NCBI GenBank assembly: GCA_012270555.1
Contig: JAAXIC010000046.1
Coordinates: 1-38,542 of the forward strand
Direction of reading: 5' to 3'
Source: Chloroflexota bacterium
GTDB taxonomy: Bacteria; Chloroflexota; UBA11872; VXOZ01
DNA length: 38,542 nucleotides
Under the pieces are notes generated by a model. It saw only the letters and a program-made list of their open reading frames with translations, was not told the DNA's origin and did no database searches. The position numbers were made by a program, and so were the translations under genes. This document shows, in pieces, positions 6,286 through 27,663 of this stretch; positions within the stretch are counted from its first letter, which is position 1, and each line of letters starts with the position of its first letter.

Positions 6286-7659
6286 ATGCGTTCCGAGATC
6301 AGCAGACGGAGATTTCTGGCGGGTTCGGCAACCGCTTTCGGCGCGATTGCCCTGGCCGCGTGCGGTCAGGTACAGACGACGGGCGAGATGATGGAGGAGC
6401 AGGCAGCCGAGCCGGAGGCGGAAAAAGAAGCCGTCGAGGAGCCTGTAGCCGAGCAAGTGACGATCCAGTTCATGTGGCCGCCCTATTCGCCGGCCAAGGA
6501 GCGCTGGTACGAGCGCTTGGTGACCGCCTACGAGGAAAAGAATCCCAACGTAACGATCTCCACGATTCTCGATACGGCGCTCAACGACCGCATCGGCACA
6601 AATGCCGCCGCCGGTGGCGGCTTGCTTGACGTGACCTGGCATGGCTGGGGTTGGGCACGGTGGGGTGAAGAAGGTGTCTTCCTGCCGCTGGAGCCGTACG
6701 TCAAGGCGTCCGGCCTGAACCTGGATGATTATTACAAGGCCGCCATCGACGGGGTCACCTGGAAAGGCACGCTGCATGCGCTGCCGCTGGGCATTCTGAC
6801 GCCGGTGATGGCGCTCAACCTCGATATGTTCGCGACGGCGGGCATCGAGGTGCCGTCCGATGACTGGACCTTCGGGGACATGATCGATATTGGCGCCAAG
6901 CTCACTGATGCCGCCAACGGCAAGTGGGGCGTGTCGACGCGGTTCTGGTATTGGTCCACCTGGTACGTCTCCTATGGCCGCGATCAGGGCTCCATCAACA
7001 ATGAATGGCAGACAATGAGCTGGGACGCGCCGGTGCGCACCGAGCTGATTAGGACGCGGGGAGACCTGTTCCACAAGCACCAAGTCGAAGCCTACGGCGA
7101 CGATGCCGCGGAAGAGACAATCTTCGATCACTTCAAGAACCAGAAGGTCGCCATCTACTCGGGCTACAACTGGCTCGTGCCCAGCTTCCGTACGGACGCG
7201 CAGTTCAATTGGACGTTGCATCCCATCCCGTTCATCGACTTCGAGGGCGAGCCGACGCGCAACGGTGCGCTCTACACCGAGGAGATCGCCCTTGTGGAAG
7301 GCAGCAAGGTGCTCGACCACGGGTGGGACTTCACCGCGTGGATCTGCGGGCCGGAGCAACTGGATACGGCCGCCCGTAACGGCGATACGACGCCGACGAT
7401 TAAGGCGATCGCCGAAAGCGACGCGTTCATCAATCTGGACCTGCCGCCCGGAGAGAGAATCATCGAGTATCTGCGCGCGATGGAAACCGCCATTCCATTC
7501 TTGCTCCATCCAATTGGCGGCGATCTCGCAGGACCCCTGTGGAAGAACGCCGGTCAGGCGACGCAAGCGAATCCGACTCTGACGCCGGAGGAAGCTACGC
7601 GCACGGCCCAGGGCGAGGCTCAAGCCATCTTGGACGAGTACAACGCGAGCAGGCAATAG
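6286..7659 (+). CDS. Tat-exported lipoprotein, ABC transporter solute-binding protein (sugar type)
   Basis: 457-aa extracytoplasmic solute-binding protein. A Tat motif SRRRFL (residues 6-11), a hydrophobic stretch and a lipobox LAAC with Cys26 are followed by an acidic linker rich in Glu, then a binding domain starting VTIQFMWPPYSPAKERWYERL. The downstream WYERLVTAYEEKNPNVTIS stretch is typical of family-1 sugar binders. The ATG at 6286 is preceded by a strong AAGGAGAAGGG. An upstream in-frame GTG at 6175 would bury the Tat signal behind 37 residues and is rejected. No permease or ATPase gene lies next to it. A perfect 30-bp palindrome follows the stop codon. The substrate is unknown. Confidence 0.9.
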   Translation: MRSEISRRRFLAGSATAFGAIALAACGQVQTTGEMMEEQAAEPEAEKEAVEEPVAEQVTIQFMWPPYSPAKERWYERLVTAYEEKNPNVTISTILDTALNDRIGTNAAAGGGLLDVTWHGWGWARWGEEGVFLPLEPYVKASGLNLDDYYKAAIDGVTWKGTLHALPLGILTPVMALNLDMFATAGIEVPSDDWTFGDMIDIGAKLTDAANGKWGVSTRFWYWSTWYVSYGRDQGSINNEWQTMSWDAPVRTELIRTRGDLFHKHQVEAYGDDAAEETIFDHFKNQKVAIYSGYNWLVPSFRTDAQFNWTLHPIPFIDFEGEPTRNGALYTEEIALVEGSKVLDHGWDFTAWICGPEQLDTAARNGDTTPTIKAIAESDAFINLDLPPGERIIEYLRAMETAIPFLLHPIGGDLAGPLWKNAGQATQANPTLTPEEATRTAQGEAQAILDEYNASRQ

Positions 7660-7848: not shown

Positions 7849-8910
7849 ATGGGCGCACGTGGCGTATCTCCTGACGATGCGGAAGCCATTCGCCAAGAGC
7901 AAGTAGCGGAGATCGACGACTATTACTCCGCGCTGGTGTATGCGGCGGCGGAGACGCGCGAGCGCGCGTGGCAGCGGGATTTCAGTTCGCCGGACGCATA
8001 CCGCCGGTCGGTGGCAGCAAACCGTGAACGGTTTTGGCAACTCATGGGCGGCGTGCCGCGCGGTGCCGTGCCGCTGGAGCCGCGTCAGCAGGATCTGCCG
8101 GAGCGTCCTGGCATTGCGGCAAGGCGCGTCTGGATTCCGGTGGATGAAGGCGTCCACGTGTACGGTGTGCTGCTCGTGCCCACTGCCCCCCCAGGCCCGA
8201 AACCGGCCGTGATCGCGCAGCACGGCTTCTCCGGTTCGCCCGAAGCCACCTGCGGCTACTACGAGTTGGAAGAGACCGCCTACCTGCGCGACTTTGGCTT
8301 GCGTTTAGCGCAAAAAGGGTACGTAGTCTTTGCCCCGCTGGTGATGAACAACACGCCCGACCGCTCGCGTCCCAACCGCAAGGCCACACTTATCGCGCGC
8401 CAACTCATGGGCTTGGAAGTGGGCAAGATGATGCGCGTGGTGGACTATCTCCAGACCTTGCCGGAGGTGGATAACGACCGCATCGGCTACATGGGCATTT
8501 CCCAGGGCGGCATGATGGCGCTGTGGGCGGCGGCGGCTGACGAACGCATCGCCGCTTGCGTCTGCTCGGGCTACTTCACCAACCGCACACCCAAGATGAT
8601 CGATCTCTCGCCACACTACACGTCCTTCATCCAGACCGGCGATGACGATAAGTTCTTCTGGGGCCAGTTGAACGAATTCTCAGACTCTGACATCGCCGCG
8701 CTCATCTGTCCGCGCCCCTTCTTCGTGGAAGCCGGCACGGAAGACCGTGTCTTCTGGCTGGAGCACGTGAGGGAGGAATTCGCGCAACTCGAGTCAATTT
8801 ACACGCGGCTTGGCTTACCGGAGCGCGCTGAGCTCGGCATCTTTGAGGGGCCGCATGTGATCCACGGCGTAGAGTCGTTTGCCTTCCTTGACCGTTGGCT
8901 GCAGGTCTAG
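7849..8910 (+). CDS. Alpha/beta hydrolase (acetyl-xylan-esterase / dienelactone-hydrolase-like)
   Basis: 353-aa serine hydrolase. An N-terminal helical region of about 90 residues precedes an alpha/beta-hydrolase core: VWIPVDEGVHVYGVLLVP, the oxyanion-side QHGFSG (124-129), the nucleophile elbow GISQGG with Ser218, a likely acid residue in EAGTEDRVFW, and a likely catalytic His in GPHVIHG near the C-terminus. No signal peptide is visible, so it is probably cytoplasmic. The GAAAGG about 9 bases upstream supports the ATG. It likely hydrolyses an ester of a sugar or xenobiotic, but the substrate cannot be read from sequence. It is monocistronic. Confidence 0.85.
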   Translation: MGARGVSPDDAEAIRQEQVAEIDDYYSALVYAAAETRERAWQRDFSSPDAYRRSVAANRERFWQLMGGVPRGAVPLEPRQQDLPERPGIAARRVWIPVDEGVHVYGVLLVPTAPPGPKPAVIAQHGFSGSPEATCGYYELEETAYLRDFGLRLAQKGYVVFAPLVMNNTPDRSRPNRKATLIARQLMGLEVGKMMRVVDYLQTLPEVDNDRIGYMGISQGGMMALWAAAADERIAACVCSGYFTNRTPKMIDLSPHYTSFIQTGDDDKFFWGQLNEFSDSDIAALICPRPFFVEAGTEDRVFWLEHVREEFAQLESIYTRLGLPERAELGIFEGPHVIHGVESFAFLDRWLQV

Positions 8911-14926: not shown

Positions 14927-15763
14927 TTACGTAGCCAGGTCGAACGGCAAGTCGCTGATATCACGCAGTCTCCGACCATTAACGAGTGTCCTCAACAGAT
15001 CCGCGTCGGAATCATTGTCGGAGGCCGCCTCCATCAACTCCCTTAAGGCGAAGTGATAAACGCAGTCGATATCGCCTGTGCCATAGGCCAGCGACGCAAT
15101 GCGACTGGGCAGCGGTTCTCCCACAACGACGACTATGTGGGGCGTCTTGCCCTTTCGGTTGCGAACGAGGTTCAAGCCCTCAGTGCGCGCATTCTGCGAG
15201 CGATCGCTGCGAATCGTCCACTTACAGGAAACACTCGCGTGCATGATATCTGCTTGCGAATTCGCGTGCCGTAGAGGGGTATGGCTTGCCGTTCCTTCAT
15301 CGTTTACCAAGACTTCCTTCTTGTTGATCTCGGAGTCTGCCACCGGCTTTCTGCAAACCACTATGTCGGGTGTAACGATGTAGTCGCCGAAGATAATGCG
15401 TAGTTCCTCATGCGCTTCAACTACCTGTCGCACGTCAGACAGATGCAAGTATTGCTCGTAGTCCCGAATGTTCCCTCCCAACGAGAACTCCCATTCGCCG
15501 GGGCGCAGGTGGGACAAAAGCCCAAATGAATCACGCAAGAAGTCCCTTGTCGCCGCCTCGAACTGATGTCCCGCTGTTTGTCCTGCGAGCTTCTTCTTCC
15601 CTATCCGCATGCCTATGTTCTTGACAATTCCCTTGCCAAGCCTGACGCTTGCTTTGCTACTGCTATCGGCATTGTTGGGAGTGCCATCCGTCTTCTGTTG
15701 CAATACGTCACGGCAGATGCGACGATGGTAGTCTCGCCGAAGATCCTCAATTCTGCCAGGCAT
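14927..15763 (-). CDS. NgoMIV-family type II restriction endonuclease
   Basis: 278-aa protein resembling NgoMIV, a tetrameric endonuclease that cuts GCCGGC. The family's active site is PD...SCK...E. Here these are TPD with Asp133, SCK with Lys181, and Glu195 in NARTEGLNL, with 14 residues between Lys and Glu as in NgoMIV. HQFEAA with Glu69 may supply the additional acidic residue. The block SCKWTIRSDRSQNARTE and the later LPSRIASLAYGTGDIDCVYH are strongly family-like, and the residues used for DNA reading (RSDR) are kept. That suggests recognition of GCCGGC or a close variant, which is inference. The ATG overlaps the methyltransferase stop codon by one base (TAATG), so the two are translationally coupled. 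Confidence 0.9.
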   Translation of the reverse strand: MPGRIEDLRRDYHRRICRDVLQQKTDGTPNNADSSSKASVRLGKGIVKNIGMRIGKKKLAGQTAGHQFEAATRDFLRDSFGLLSHLRPGEWEFSLGGNIRDYEQYLHLSDVRQVVEAHEELRIIFGDYIVTPDIVVCRKPVADSEINKKEVLVNDEGTASHTPLRHANSQADIMHASVSCKWTIRSDRSQNARTEGLNLVRNRKGKTPHIVVVVGEPLPSRIASLAYGTGDIDCVYHFALRELMEAASDNDSDADLLRTLVNGRRLRDISDLPFDLAT

Positions 15764-17127
15764 TACGACTTCACCAAGCCAATGACGTATTCGTCATGCA
15801 TACGCGCCTCGATCTGCGAGCCTTGCTGATTGCCCCAACGCGCCGGCATCATGCGCCTATCTCGGTCGAGGCGGCGAATGCCAATACCCGCTAGGTCAAA
15901 GCCGGCGCTTTCGCCTATGGAAGCCAATCCCCTGTGCGTTTGTACGTCGATGCCTCTGAGGTTTGAGGTCGCGACGACGATTACTGCCGCACCGCCCCGC
16001 TTCAGGACCCGTTTCATTTCGGAGATTACGGTAGCCATCTCGCCAAAATAGCGGCGCAACGATTGCGCTTTCCTGGCATCGCGCTCTGCGAGGGTCGCAA
16101 TCGTCTCTTGGCACTGGTCGGGCAGGTTCTTGTACTCCATGTCGGACATTGCATCGTGTCCCAGGTACTGCGCCCGAATCTTGGAGAGTTCAGTGATTTT
16201 CCAACCAAACCATACCAAGGAGAACTTGTGTGCGCGCATGTAGTCGATCGCGTTGTTGGCGTATGGCGGCGAGGTTATGATCAAGTCAATACTCTCGGGC
16301 GGCAGGCCCGTATCGGCCGCACTGGCCGCGCGGACTTCGGCTTGACAGTGCCCCTCGCTCGAATCCATTGCGCCATTCACGCTCAAATAAGAGGTCTCTT
16401 CGGATTCAAGCGGCATCCCGTTGCCGATTGCAGCTATATTGCGCTTCAGCCGTTTGCCGAACTCTACAAATGCCGAACCTGGCTGCTTACCCATGTCCCT
16501 ATGGGGACGCGTATGTGCCAGGTCGCGTGCCAGGGAAACGCCGCCTGACTTGGCGATGATGGTCGAAGAAAATACCACGTTGAGAAAGTCACGTATACAG
16601 TCCTGTGGCAACGCCTCAATGCGTTGCAGAAGCGAGAACAACTCGATCTGGTGCTGTGGCAGAAACCAGTAGTCAATGAAGTCGGCAGTCTTTCCATCGA
16701 ATCGCAACTGGAAGTCCTGTCGCAGGCTTTGGCCGTCCTGCCAGTAGTCGCTCTGGGCCGCGCTCAGTACAGTCAGACCCGTTTCCATGGCCGCCGTCGG
16801 ATCGATGGGCGTCAGCTTTGCCCGCGCAATCATCTGAGCGAGCGGGTCTATATCGCAACCAATAGCTCGCCTGCCAAGCCGCACGGCTTCCACAAGCGTG
16901 GTTCCAGAGCCGAGCATTGGATCAAGAACTACATCACCCGGTTCCGACAGTTGCTCGATGAGGAATCGGGGCAATTGAGGTGGAAATTTCGCTGGAAAAG
17001 GATGCCAGGCATGGGGACCATAGCTCCCGTTGGTGCCGTGGAAATCCAAATCGGCACGCAAGGTCTCCCGTAAAGTGTCGAAGCAAGTACTAGCACTCAT
17101 ACTTGGTCTGCCGAGCATCCTTGCCAT
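15763..17127 (-). CDS. DNA methyltransferase of the NgoMIV-type restriction-modification system (amino-methylase type)
   Basis: 454-aa modification enzyme that should protect host sites from the adjacent endonuclease. Motif order is: AWHPFPAKFPP (motif X-like, near 41-51), LDPMLGSGTTLVEA (motif I, S-adenosylmethionine binding, about 69-82), then TSPPYANNAIDYM (motif IV, about 285-297). TSPPY marks amino-methyltransferases (N4-cytosine or N6-adenine), not C5-cytosine enzymes, which use PC. Given a GC-only target such as GCCGGC, N4-methylcytosine is expected. The start is uncertain. ATG codons lie at 17127, 17118 and 17100, none with a good ribosome site. A TTG at 17145 is unlikely. The gene lies upstream of the endonuclease and shares its promoter. 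Confidence 0.88.
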   Translation of the reverse strand: MARMLGRPSMSASTCFDTLRETLRADLDFHGTNGSYGPHAWHPFPAKFPPQLPRFLIEQLSEPGDVVLDPMLGSGTTLVEAVRLGRRAIGCDIDPLAQMIARAKLTPIDPTAAMETGLTVLSAAQSDYWQDGQSLRQDFQLRFDGKTADFIDYWFLPQHQIELFSLLQRIEALPQDCIRDFLNVVFSSTIIAKSGGVSLARDLAHTRPHRDMGKQPGSAFVEFGKRLKRNIAAIGNGMPLESEETSYLSVNGAMDSSEGHCQAEVRAASAADTGLPPESIDLIITSPPYANNAIDYMRAHKFSLVWFGWKITELSKIRAQYLGHDAMSDMEYKNLPDQCQETIATLAERDARKAQSLRRYFGEMATVISEMKRVLKRGGAAVIVVATSNLRGIDVQTHRGLASIGESAGFDLAGIGIRRLDRDRRMMPARWGNQQGSQIEARMHDEYVIGLVKS

Positions 17128-17445
17128 CCGAGAAGACGCGGGCAAAGTGTGAAACTGGCGTTAGTCAGCATAGTCCACTCCAACGAATGCAGACAACCCA
17201 TGTGTCTCTATTGAGAGGGTATGCGGCGAATGGTTGCGGAGGGAGTGAATGCGCCTTGGCCAAGGCTACCTGCCTGCTAGGGATTCTGCTTTATGCAAGA
17301 GTTCCCACAAGTTTGACCATTATGGCGTCTTCACTATAGAAAGGAATACAGCCGCCGGTCAAGTGCGGTTCGCCGCGCTACACTCCAACTTCTGCTAATC
17401 TCCACCCTCCCGTGAATCCGTCCTGACCGTCATGTCAGCGCCATT
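17128..17445. other. Gap carrying the restriction-modification promoter
   Basis: No gene of usable size, and no C-protein-like regulator frame. On the minus strand a frame of 34 codons runs into the ATG at 17100 with an ATGA overlap, but it has no ribosome site and I do not call it. The promoter pair at 17333-17362 is the one clear feature. Confidence 0.5.
17333..17362 (-). promoter_or_regulatory. Sigma-70-like promoter of the restriction-modification operon
   Basis: On the minus strand TTGACC (17362-17357) and TATAGT (17338-17333) are 18 bases apart. Each matches the consensus at five of six positions. The methyltransferase start is about 200 bases downstream, so the leader is long, and initiation near this site would place the methylase first. 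Confidence 0.5.
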
Positions 17446-24233: not shown

Positions 24234-24806
24234 TCACTTTGAGCTATCCTGCTCCTCTTCCGCTTGGCAGAGCGGGCAGAGGCCGGGGGCGCTAATATGA
24301 GTGCCGCATTGCTCGCAGCGGTCAGACTCCTGTTTTTCGCTTGCGGCCAGCCGGGCCAGCGCCTGCTCGCGCACGGTGGGGTTTTCGATGAGGTCGATGG
24401 CTTGGCGTAAACGCCGTTCGCGATCGGGGTCAGCGTCCGCAGCGGCCTTTTGGGGCGGAGCATCAGGTGTGGGCTGAGAGACACCTCCGCTCACGGCGCG
24501 GGAGGTTGACCGCCGTCCCCGTACGCGGAACTCGAGCTTGGTGACGAGCGGGCGGCCTAGCCTGGTATTCAGGTCACGTATAAGTTGGGGCGTACGCATG
24601 TGCAACTCGTGGACGGCGGCTGACGACGGGGACTCAACGACCAAGGTACCGTGTTGAAAGCGGCTGGGACGCGCAGCGCGGGCATGGGCAGGCAAGTCCG
24701 CCGCAAGAGCGCGCCACGCGGCAAACACGGCTGCCCGCTTGAGTTGCTCGGAGATGCCCAACTCTTCGATGGTGCCGGGCAGAATGTCTTTGAGCGACTT
24801 GAACAT
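24234..24806 (-). CDS. DUF721 / DciA-like protein with C-terminal zinc ribbon
   Basis: 190-aa protein. Residues 1-95 match DUF721 (FKSLKDILPGTIEELGISEQL; VFAAWRAL; ARPSRFQHGTLVVESPSSAAVHEL). This is the domain of DciA, which helps load the replicative helicase in bacteria lacking DnaC/DnaI. After a polar linker (100-130), residues 164-180 hold CEQC and CPLC, a four-cysteine zinc ribbon (Cys164, 167, 177, 180). It is on the same strand as recF, 470 bases downstream of it. A recF-DUF721 neighbourhood near the origin is common, which supports the replication role. The fused zinc ribbon is not part of the minimal DciA domain. Confidence 0.87.
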   Translation of the reverse strand: MFKSLKDILPGTIEELGISEQLKRAAVFAAWRALAADLPAHARAARPSRFQHGTLVVESPSSAAVHELHMRTPQLIRDLNTRLGRPLVTKLEFRVRGRRSTSRAVSGGVSQPTPDAPPQKAAADADPDRERRLRQAIDLIENPTVREQALARLAASEKQESDRCEQCGTHISAPGLCPLCQAEEEQDSSK

Positions 24807-25276: not shown

Positions 25277-26527
25277 CTATTGTGCGCCTGAAACCGTATC
25301 GTTGCCGACATGGAGAACATGGGCCGCAGCCACGATGTCCTGGGAGAACTGCTGAAGGTCGGAGGTGGTAGCGAAGGCTTGGACGTTGGGCGCAAGGGAC
25401 GCGAGGACGTGTTGGCGGCGCTGGGCATCGAGTTCGGAGAGGAAATCGTCGAGGAGAATCACGGGCCACTCACCGGATTCGGCATGGAGCAGGGCTATTT
25501 CCGTGAGCTTCAGGGTGAGCGCCGCGAGCCGCTGCTCGCCGCGTGAACCGTAGGCGGCGAGGGGGTGGTCGCCGCGCAGGAAGGCGAGATCGTCACGGTG
25601 GGGCCCAACCACCGTTACCGCTTGGGCGCGCTCGCGGGGGGTATGCTCAGCGAGGGTGGCGGCAAAGGCTGCTTGAATGTCCGCTTGCCAGGTTTGCAGC
25701 AGCGCGTTGATGCGGAGTTCGTCGCAAGGCGGGGTCGGCGGCAGCGGCACGGTGGACTCGTAGCGCAGGCTTAACCCTGTGCTGCGCGGGCCTCGCTCTG
25801 CGTCTTGCCGGCTTTCTGCTGCGCCCTGCGAGTCCAATTCGCCGCTTTTACCCGTGAGCGAGGCGTAGCAAGCGGCGAGGGGTTCCGCCACGTGCGCTGT
25901 GTAGGCCGCGCGCAACGCGATGACCGGTGCGCCCAAGGCTGTGAGTTCACGATTCCAGGCTTCCAGTTGCCGCTGGTCGCGGGTTGTGCCTTCACGCAGG
26001 GCACGCAAAAGCGCATTGCGCTCCGCCATGACGTGCTCATAGCCCTGCAAGGCACGCAGGTAGTTGGGATCGATGCGGCTGAGGAGGTAGTCCAGGTAGC
26101 GGCGGCGGGTGCTCGGTGAGCCGTCTACCAGGGCAATGTCGTGGGGCGTGAAAAGCACCACGTGCAGGTGCTGCAGCAGGCTGGACGCGCGGCGGGGCGC
26201 GCCGCCGATGCGGATGCGCTTGCTAAACCCGGCGTCCTGGTCCTGTTCGGCGGCCCAGATCACTTCCAGCGTGGTCGTGTTTTCGCGGGCGGTCACGTCG
26301 CCTGCTACCCGTGTGTAGGGACGCGCCGGGTCGGGGGCAAAGCTGCGCAACTCCGCCTCGGAGCGGGCGCGGTAGGAGCGGCCGGTGGCCAGGCAGTGGA
26401 TGGCCTCGAGGATATTCGACTTCCCCGCGCCGTTCGGTCCGGTAAAGATCGTCAGTCCCTGCGCGAGTGGGAGTGCGACGGCGCGATAGTTGCGGAAGTT
26501 CGTAAGAGTGAGCGCGGTGAGATACAC
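25277..26527 (-). CDS. recF: DNA replication and repair protein RecF
   Basis: 416-aa SMC-like ATPase that binds gapped DNA and helps RecO/RecR load RecA. MYLTALTLTNFRNY is the family start, the Walker A is GPNGAGKS (30-37), the ABC-type signature is GSRGEQR, and the Walker B is ILLDDFLSELD. VVLFTPHDIALVDGSPSTRRRYLD is a RecF-specific block. The start is GTG with AAGGA about 7 bases upstream. It is longer than typical RecF (about 360-370) because of an insertion near residues 225-260 (GELDSQGAAESRQDAERGPR). Two parS sites lie upstream. dnaA and dnaN, its frequent neighbours, are not here. Confidence 0.95.
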   Translation of the reverse strand: MYLTALTLTNFRNYRAVALPLAQGLTIFTGPNGAGKSNILEAIHCLATGRSYRARSEAELRSFAPDPARPYTRVAGDVTARENTTTLEVIWAAEQDQDAGFSKRIRIGGAPRRASSLLQHLHVVLFTPHDIALVDGSPSTRRRYLDYLLSRIDPNYLRALQGYEHVMAERNALLRALREGTTRDQRQLEAWNRELTALGAPVIALRAAYTAHVAEPLAACYASLTGKSGELDSQGAAESRQDAERGPRSTGLSLRYESTVPLPPTPPCDELRINALLQTWQADIQAAFAATLAEHTPRERAQAVTVVGPHRDDLAFLRGDHPLAAYGSRGEQRLAALTLKLTEIALLHAESGEWPVILLDDFLSELDAQRRQHVLASLAPNVQAFATTSDLQQFSQDIVAAAHVLHVGNDTVSGAQ

Positions 26528-26566
26528 AGAGCGTCCTTTTGGCCGCTGCCCGGCGTACGGCGCGAT

Positions 26567-26582
26567 TGTTTCACGTGAAACA
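26567..26582. promoter_or_regulatory. parS site 1 (ParB binding)
   Basis: TGTTTCACGTGAAACA, a perfect 16-bp palindrome identical to the bacterial chromosomal parS consensus. It lies 40 bases upstream of the recF start. ParB would nucleate here for chromosome segregation. Confidence 0.92.
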
Positions 26583-26679
26583 CAAAGTGCGGCTGGCGTG
26601 ACAGTTACGAAACCGTATGAGTGACCGCGCAGTGAGATACTCGGTGTGCCTTTTGATCGCGGCCTGGTATGTGGCGTGA

Positions 26680-26695
26680 TGTTTCACGTGAAACA
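26680..26695. promoter_or_regulatory. parS site 2 (ParB binding)
   Basis: A second perfect TGTTTCACGTGAAACA, 113 bases from the first. The flanking sequence is also similar on both sides (CCTTTTG and CTGGCGTG blocks), so the two sites are halves of a duplicated cassette. Confidence 0.92.
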
Positions 26696-26733
26696 TGCAG
26701 TGTCGCTGGCGTGGCAGCGAATGGAGTGTCCGG

Positions 26734-27663
26734 CTACCCCTCACGCCACGGCGGCACGTCCCACGTATTCACCCACTCCCACTGCCATTCCACCCGCTTC
26801 TCCGGCAGCGTGACCGCGTATTCGATGCCGGCCGTAAACGGCAGCACCTGCGTCTGCGCGCCCACCTTTTCACGATAGTACTCGATGAATGCGCCCACGT
26901 CGCTGGCGTTCGGCGGCCAGTGCCCCTCCGGTACCGGGTCCGCTTTGCGATCGGTGCGGTAGTGCACCGGAATCAGCGCATAGGGCCGGATGTAGTCCAC
27001 GAAGTCCTCAAGCTCGGTATTTTGCTGTTCCGCATTCGTCGGCACGAGACCCAGCTTCATGTGAATGGCAAAGTCCACGCGCCCGCGCAGCGCCTGCATC
27101 GCCGGATAAGCGGCCCACGCGTCGCCAATGTGCAGGAACGAGACATTCAAGGCTTTGTGCGTCACGAGAAAGCCCAGGTTCGGCAGGTCGGGCCGCTGGT
27201 TTTCACCGCTTTCGATGGTCTCTACGAGCAGCGGGCCGAGGTCGAGCTCGTCCGGACCGGGAAACTCTCGCACGTGCACCGTGCCCGCCCACGGCCGGCC
27301 GCGCTGCAGTTCGTTCTGGTGCTTGGGATACATCACCTGGATCTTGTCGGCCGGCACGTGCTTGGTGATGGGCAAATCGCGGGAGAAGGCCGCATCGCCG
27401 TATTTCTCGTCAATAGGTTCGTCCGGCCACAGAGCGCCCGGCGGCACGAACATCTTCTTAAAGCGCTCACCCTGGCAGAGCTTGCGCAATGTCTTGGGAT
27501 GGCAATGGTCGAAGTGCTCGTGGCTGATGAAGATGTAATCGTAAATCGGCTCGGCGTTGTCCAGGTTCTTCCCAAAGAGATAGGGATCAAAGGCGATGTT
27601 CACGTCGCCAAAGCGCACGTCGAAAGCCCCGCACCCCCACCATCGCAGCCAAATACGATCCAT
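26734..27663 (-). CDS. MBL-fold metallo-hydrolase
   Basis: 309-aa cytoplasmic protein of the metallo-beta-lactamase superfamily. The dinuclear metal motif SHEHFDHCHP gives His48, His50, Asp52 and His53. Later ligand candidates are His in FLHIGDAW with its Asp and His in IPVHYRTD. WLRWWGCGAFDVRFGDVNIAFDPY at the start is like L-ascorbate-6-phosphate-lactonase-type and UlaG-like members, but the exact reaction cannot be assigned. The start ATG has AGGAAA about 6 bases upstream. The gene ends 39 bases from the nearer parS site. Confidence 0.88.
   Translation of the reverse strand: MDRIWLRWWGCGAFDVRFGDVNIAFDPYLFGKNLDNAEPIYDYIFISHEHFDHCHPKTLRKLCQGERFKKMFVPPGALWPDEPIDEKYGDAAFSRDLPITKHVPADKIQVMYPKHQNELQRGRPWAGTVHVREFPGPDELDLGPLLVETIESGENQRPDLPNLGFLVTHKALNVSFLHIGDAWAAYPAMQALRGRVDFAIHMKLGLVPTNAEQQNTELEDFVDYIRPYALIPVHYRTDRKADPVPEGHWPPNASDVGAFIEYYREKVGAQTQVLPFTAGIEYAVTLPEKRVEWQWEWVNTWDVPPWREG

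Follow-up and report, generated by a model that had tools for sequence, protein, structure and literature searches.

A parS pair beside recF in a Chloroflexota genome: a putative centromere within tandem repeats containing recF start copies

Chromosomal parS sites almost always lie in the origin domain, and one parS is sufficient for segregation in the species studied (PMC7022226). ParB proteins that bind parS show the RxxG pattern at their specificity positions (R173 and G201 in Caulobacter numbering), and Noc proteins show QKKR (PMC7383237). Spreading of ParB is CTP-dependent (PMC8367383, PMC7053999). In Caulobacter the recF-gyrB region is a hot spot that tolerates inserted parS (PMC5815017). 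In the literature we found nothing relevant on tandem duplication of parS and no paper on Chloroflexota oriC with GC skew.

The parS pair and its repeat units

The window analysed here is the entire contig C18 (38.5 kb) of a 3.18-Mb Chloroflexota assembly. The palindrome TGTTTCACGTGAAACA is present twice, with a start-to-start spacing of 113 bp. Both copies lie within a 206-bp gap that has recF on one side and a metallo-beta-lactamase-fold hydrolase gene on the other. The sites and the neighbouring genes are as follows.

24234-24806, minus strand: gene for DciA (DUF721), helicase-loader family, downstream of recF (PF05258, E=1.3e-13)
25277-26527, minus strand: recF, 416 aa, GTG start (TIGR00611, 286 bits; cut-off 172)
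26567-26582, no strand assigned: parS1, perfect 16-bp palindrome, 39 bp before the recF start codon
26680-26695, no strand assigned: parS2, also a perfect 16-bp palindrome; the stop codon of the upstream hydrolase gene is 38 bp away
26734-27663, minus strand: metallo-beta-lactamase-fold hydrolase gene (PF13483, E=6e-11; synteny)

The sequence-only reading had described two perfect parS sites adjoining recF. This was borne out, as both copies are exact and recF is confirmed by TIGR00611. The Noc-binding site (NBS, TATTTCCCGGGAAATA) was considered as an identity for the palindromes and rejected, the sequence being different. Elsewhere in the window (14927-17145, minus strand) a gene for an NgoMIV-family restriction endonuclease (PF09015, E=4e-103) adjoins an N6/N4 DNA methyltransferase gene; the two apparently form a complete type II restriction-modification pair.

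With up to three mismatches to parS allowed, the window contains two matches, compared to 0.08 expected from shuffled sequences. In the whole assembly (3,181,364 bases in 56 contigs) the pair are the sole matches within two mismatches. The search for further copies that the earlier reading had called for thus returned none, and parS is not evenly scattered over the genome, the only two sites being clustered 113 bp apart. At three mismatches the genome has five parS-like sites and the reversed-pattern control ten, and the three extra sites are considered background since the total is below that control.

Self-alignment showed that the two sites belong to a larger tandem repeat with a unit size of about 111 bp, as listed below.

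26472-26582, minus strand: repeat unit A, with recF codons 1 to ~18, the leader and parS1 (self-alignment with unit B)
26586-26695, minus strand: repeat unit B, with parS2 and a degenerate copy of the leader and of the recF 5' end (self-alignment with unit A)
26586-26640, minus strand: vestigial recF 5' coding end within unit B, GTG start changed to GAG (alignment)
26696-26721, minus strand: partial third unit, upstream of parS2 (self-alignment extension; 38-nt repeat family D1)

Outside parS, 70 of 93 aligned positions are identical between units A and B (p <= 0.001 by shuffling), and the unit flank without parS gives an alignment score of 76 (at most 34 in 1000 shuffles). The first ~18 codons of recF are inside the unit, so a broken recF start is found between parS1 and parS2; with an alignment score of 55, this vestigial start exceeds the best shuffle (30). 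It had been proposed that roughly 75 bases were duplicated at a 113-base period. The spacing of 113 bp holds, but the duplicated segment is larger, about 111 bp including recF coding sequence. The similar flanking blocks noted on either side (CCTTTTG and GCTGGCGTG) are indeed both repeated and are parts of this longer unit.

Conservation in the genus and a putative cognate ParB

In four of four well-assembled congeners parS is found between recF and the hydrolase gene, which forms the far border of the gap in each, and the number of sites varies from one to three. In congener G001 there are two sites, both exact, with a spacing of 110 bp. In G002 an exact site is accompanied by one with a single mismatch, 113 bp away, and a third, decayed unit adjoins recF. 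Two exact sites and a single-mismatch one are present in G003, where ~1.2 kb separates two of the units. G004 has one intact site and a four-mismatch relic; a gene for an SDH-type ClpP-like serine protease (L007 6558-7499) lies between its surviving parS and recF. In G005, a congener assembly that is 69% complete, no parS was found within two mismatches. The leaders diverge by about one quarter to one third between species while the intact parS cores are identical, and this retention of parS amid diverging flanking DNA argues for selection on the site. It is virtually inconceivable that the palindromes arose by chance matching or as an artefact of assembly. Errors do occur when tandem repeats are assembled, but the same layout is present in separate assemblies of other species whose flanks have diverged, and the count in the window is far above that in shuffles; with the arrangement conserved among congeners, this explanation is already refuted.

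A profile built on the leader and the 5' end of recF detected decayed copies among the sites in five of five genomes (the present one, G000, and G001 to G004). It scored 20.2 bits in this genome, 10.5 in G004 and 6.5 to 8.9 in the others, where the best of 1000 shuffled leaders reached 8.2; the decayed copies are individually weak in G001, G002 and G004. A recent duplication alone was rejected as an account of the pair because the congeners carry decayed units. The picture is that of an old tandem array, its units gained and lost over time and its parS core kept.

One ParB gene was found in the genome, on contig C12 (positions 6573-7406), with ParA encoded adjacent to it. The protein has ParB_N, HTH_ParB and ParB_C domains and carries a GERRWRA box. 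Its best alignment among solved structures is to Thermus Spo0J (1vz0, an entry that we take to be the Thermus protein). A manual mapping based on the spacing of the motifs gives R, T, N and G at the four specificity positions, which is the RxxG pattern; a Noc identity was rejected, Noc having Q, K, K and R. The genome encodes ParA together with a ParB with the CTP box and parS-specific residues.

Contig C12, which carries parAB, has no parS, and no parS was found near parAB in this genus. The arrangement in other genera is different. At 11 parS loci from other genera parB adjoins parS, mostly with the site within ~60 bp of the parB end, and the ParB proteins of these genera are 41 to 53% identical to that of the present genus. 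Among 25 recF loci taken from other genera, none has a parS near recF. Since parS directly follows parB in many genera of the class, the site probably moved in the lineage of this genus, the direction of the move being judged from the distribution of sites.

The number of sites also varies in the wider group. In family f3, most genomes of genus g5 (G017, G019, G023, G027, G030-G032, G034, G035, G039 and G040) carry 7 to 23 parS-like sites with at most one mismatch, compared to one to three in the genus of the window. In family f2, none of nine genomes (G006, G008, G010, G012, G014, G018, G022, G024 and G026; each 77 to 94% complete) has parS within one mismatch, and this family may use a diverged site.

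Position relative to the origin

The lack of parA, parB, dnaA and dnaN in the window had been taken to suggest a dispersed origin region. Such absence by itself is little proof, the window being a whole contig of 38.5 kb. Gene placement in the assembly supports the suggestion: dnaA is on contig C8, dnaN on C7, gyrB on C9 and parAB on C12, each apart from the recF contig. The parS pair is thus away from parAB and from all origin genes except recF. In G001, C2 holds dnaA, dnaN and gyrB, C8 has parB at its end, and recF-parS is on C9.

The claim that the site marks a segregation domain near the origin was not supported. GC skew was derived from sampled stretches of three relatives, with contig order unknown. 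On C9 of G001 there is no clear skew switch at parS, and the skew is negative along the sampled length. No DnaA-box clusters were found at recF/parS, dnaA or dnaN in this genus, and the directions of the ribosomal operons in G001 point elsewhere. On C2 of this congener the skew switches from plus to minus at ~0.5 to 0.6 Mb. The str/S10 ribosomal operon is at ~265 kb on the minus strand, and the rRNA operon (inferred from a tRNA-Ile/tRNA-Ala pair) is at ~711 kb on the plus strand, so that the two diverge around dnaN (457 kb) and the switch. The sampled skew and the operon directions in G001, whose contigs are unordered, disagree on the origin. If the origin is at the C2 switch, the skew polarity would be reversed and parS would, however the contigs are ordered, be at least ~0.54 Mb from it. 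With normal polarity, the parS end of C9 would be origin-proximal, but the ribosomal operons would then oppose the forks.

The pair might be a centromere that is uncoupled from the origin, lying at least ~0.5 Mb from an oriC near dnaN. The divergence of the G001 ribosomal operons around dnaN and the ~0.5 to 0.6 Mb switch, together with the single skew sign held throughout the parS-bearing contig, is consistent with this arrangement. We nevertheless consider it unlikely: it requires a reversed GC-skew polarity, the contig order is unknown and the genome only partly sampled, and parS is nearly always in the origin domain elsewhere (PMC7022226). It is equally doubtful that the centromere became detached from parAB as well as from the origin and settled anew by recF, possibly in the half of the chromosome nearer the terminus, with its copy number kept by birth and death of recF-derived repeats.

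Paired DnaA boxes ~39 to 42 kb from dnaA, one pair per genome in six of six genus members, were examined as an oriC candidate and rejected, since they precede an mraZ-like gene. This gene encodes 143 to 167 aa and is followed by an rsmH-sized gene (MraZ was recognised by eye). Rather than an origin, the paired repeats probably form an MraZ operator; as conserved DnaA-box-like repeats (G000 C8 218871-218897 and five congeners) they are easily taken for one. The best dif-like site in the sampled stretches matched 21 of 28 positions, near background.

Other genomes show a variety of layouts. Three exact DnaA boxes beside dnaA were found only in G009. In this genome (C1 799424-799473) and in G007 (C4 ~8390-8420) DnaA boxes lie between dnaA and parAB-parS, the classical origin layout. 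In G009, parS, dnaA, the three boxes and parB are found together near the sampled skew maximum, where a terminus is expected. G045, a single-contig genome of another family, has parS at C1 475608 and 476298, 690 bp apart and ~6 kb from dnaN; its parS and dnaN are close to a normal sampled skew minimum and far from dnaA and parAB. A similar parS pair, 699 bp apart, is found in G057 of the same genus.

Predicted function and comparison with known systems

Judged from sequence and gene content, the parS pair is very probably the working centromere of the chromosome and the only ParB-loading site of the genome. A dimer of ParB, whose gene lies elsewhere with that of ParA, would bind to each palindrome, form a closed clamp with bound CTP and slide into the flanking DNA. 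It would then recruit SMC, and ParA would move the complex; the predicted loading and the hand-over to ParA and SMC follow general ParABS biology (PMC7022226). With the sole pair beside recF, segregation probably starts away from the usual neighbours of parS. The number of sites may shift by tandem duplication or loss of the ~111-bp unit including the recF start, with the parS core retained and the surplus recF starts left to decay.

The pair had also been thought to give ParB a tight double nucleation site. This is plausible, but a double site is not obligatory, as G004 lives with one intact parS. Since one site is enough in the species studied (PMC7022226), what the doublet contributes is probably strength or robustness.

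Could the main role of the sites be that of an operator in the recF leader under ParB control, with segregation using other, diverged sites? Both sites are in that leader, parS1 being only 39 bp before the start codon, and the recF-proximal position is kept in this genome, G001 and G003. However, the recF-proximal copy has decayed in G002, and in G004 a distance of ~1.6 kb, with another gene in it, separates the sole intact site from recF. It is the parS core that is conserved and not how far it lies from recF. The sites are not overlapped by any sigma-70-type promoter match, and no second parS-like group was found above control. An operator role of this kind appears quite improbable, and a centromere is the preferred reading.

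The position of parS is generally regarded as closely bound to that of the origin. In this genus parS stays between one pair of genes and the usual origin genes are scattered, which makes it a natural test of what holds a centromere near oriC. The repeat units also show a simple way for the number of parS sites to rise or fall, namely tandem duplication in which selection retains the 16-bp core.

The Caulobacter parS cluster near ori likewise has several sites close together, from which a single ParB complex is expected; it differs in lying ~8 kb from a known origin. The parB-linked parS loci of the same class and phylum share the 16-bp site and a homologous ParB, but there (11 genomes) the site is beside parAB and here none is near parAB. 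In common with canonical chromosomal ParABS, the locus has the exact consensus TGTTTCAC-GTGAAACA (PMC7383237), a small cluster of sites and a canonical ParA and ParB pair. It differs in that the only sites are in the recF leader, away from parAB, dnaA, dnaN and gyrB, and within tandem units in which the recF start is also copied. It was concluded that the locus is, as far as its sequence indicates, a real and conserved centromere in an unusual place, apparently built by tandem duplication, and that its molecular part appears ordinary.
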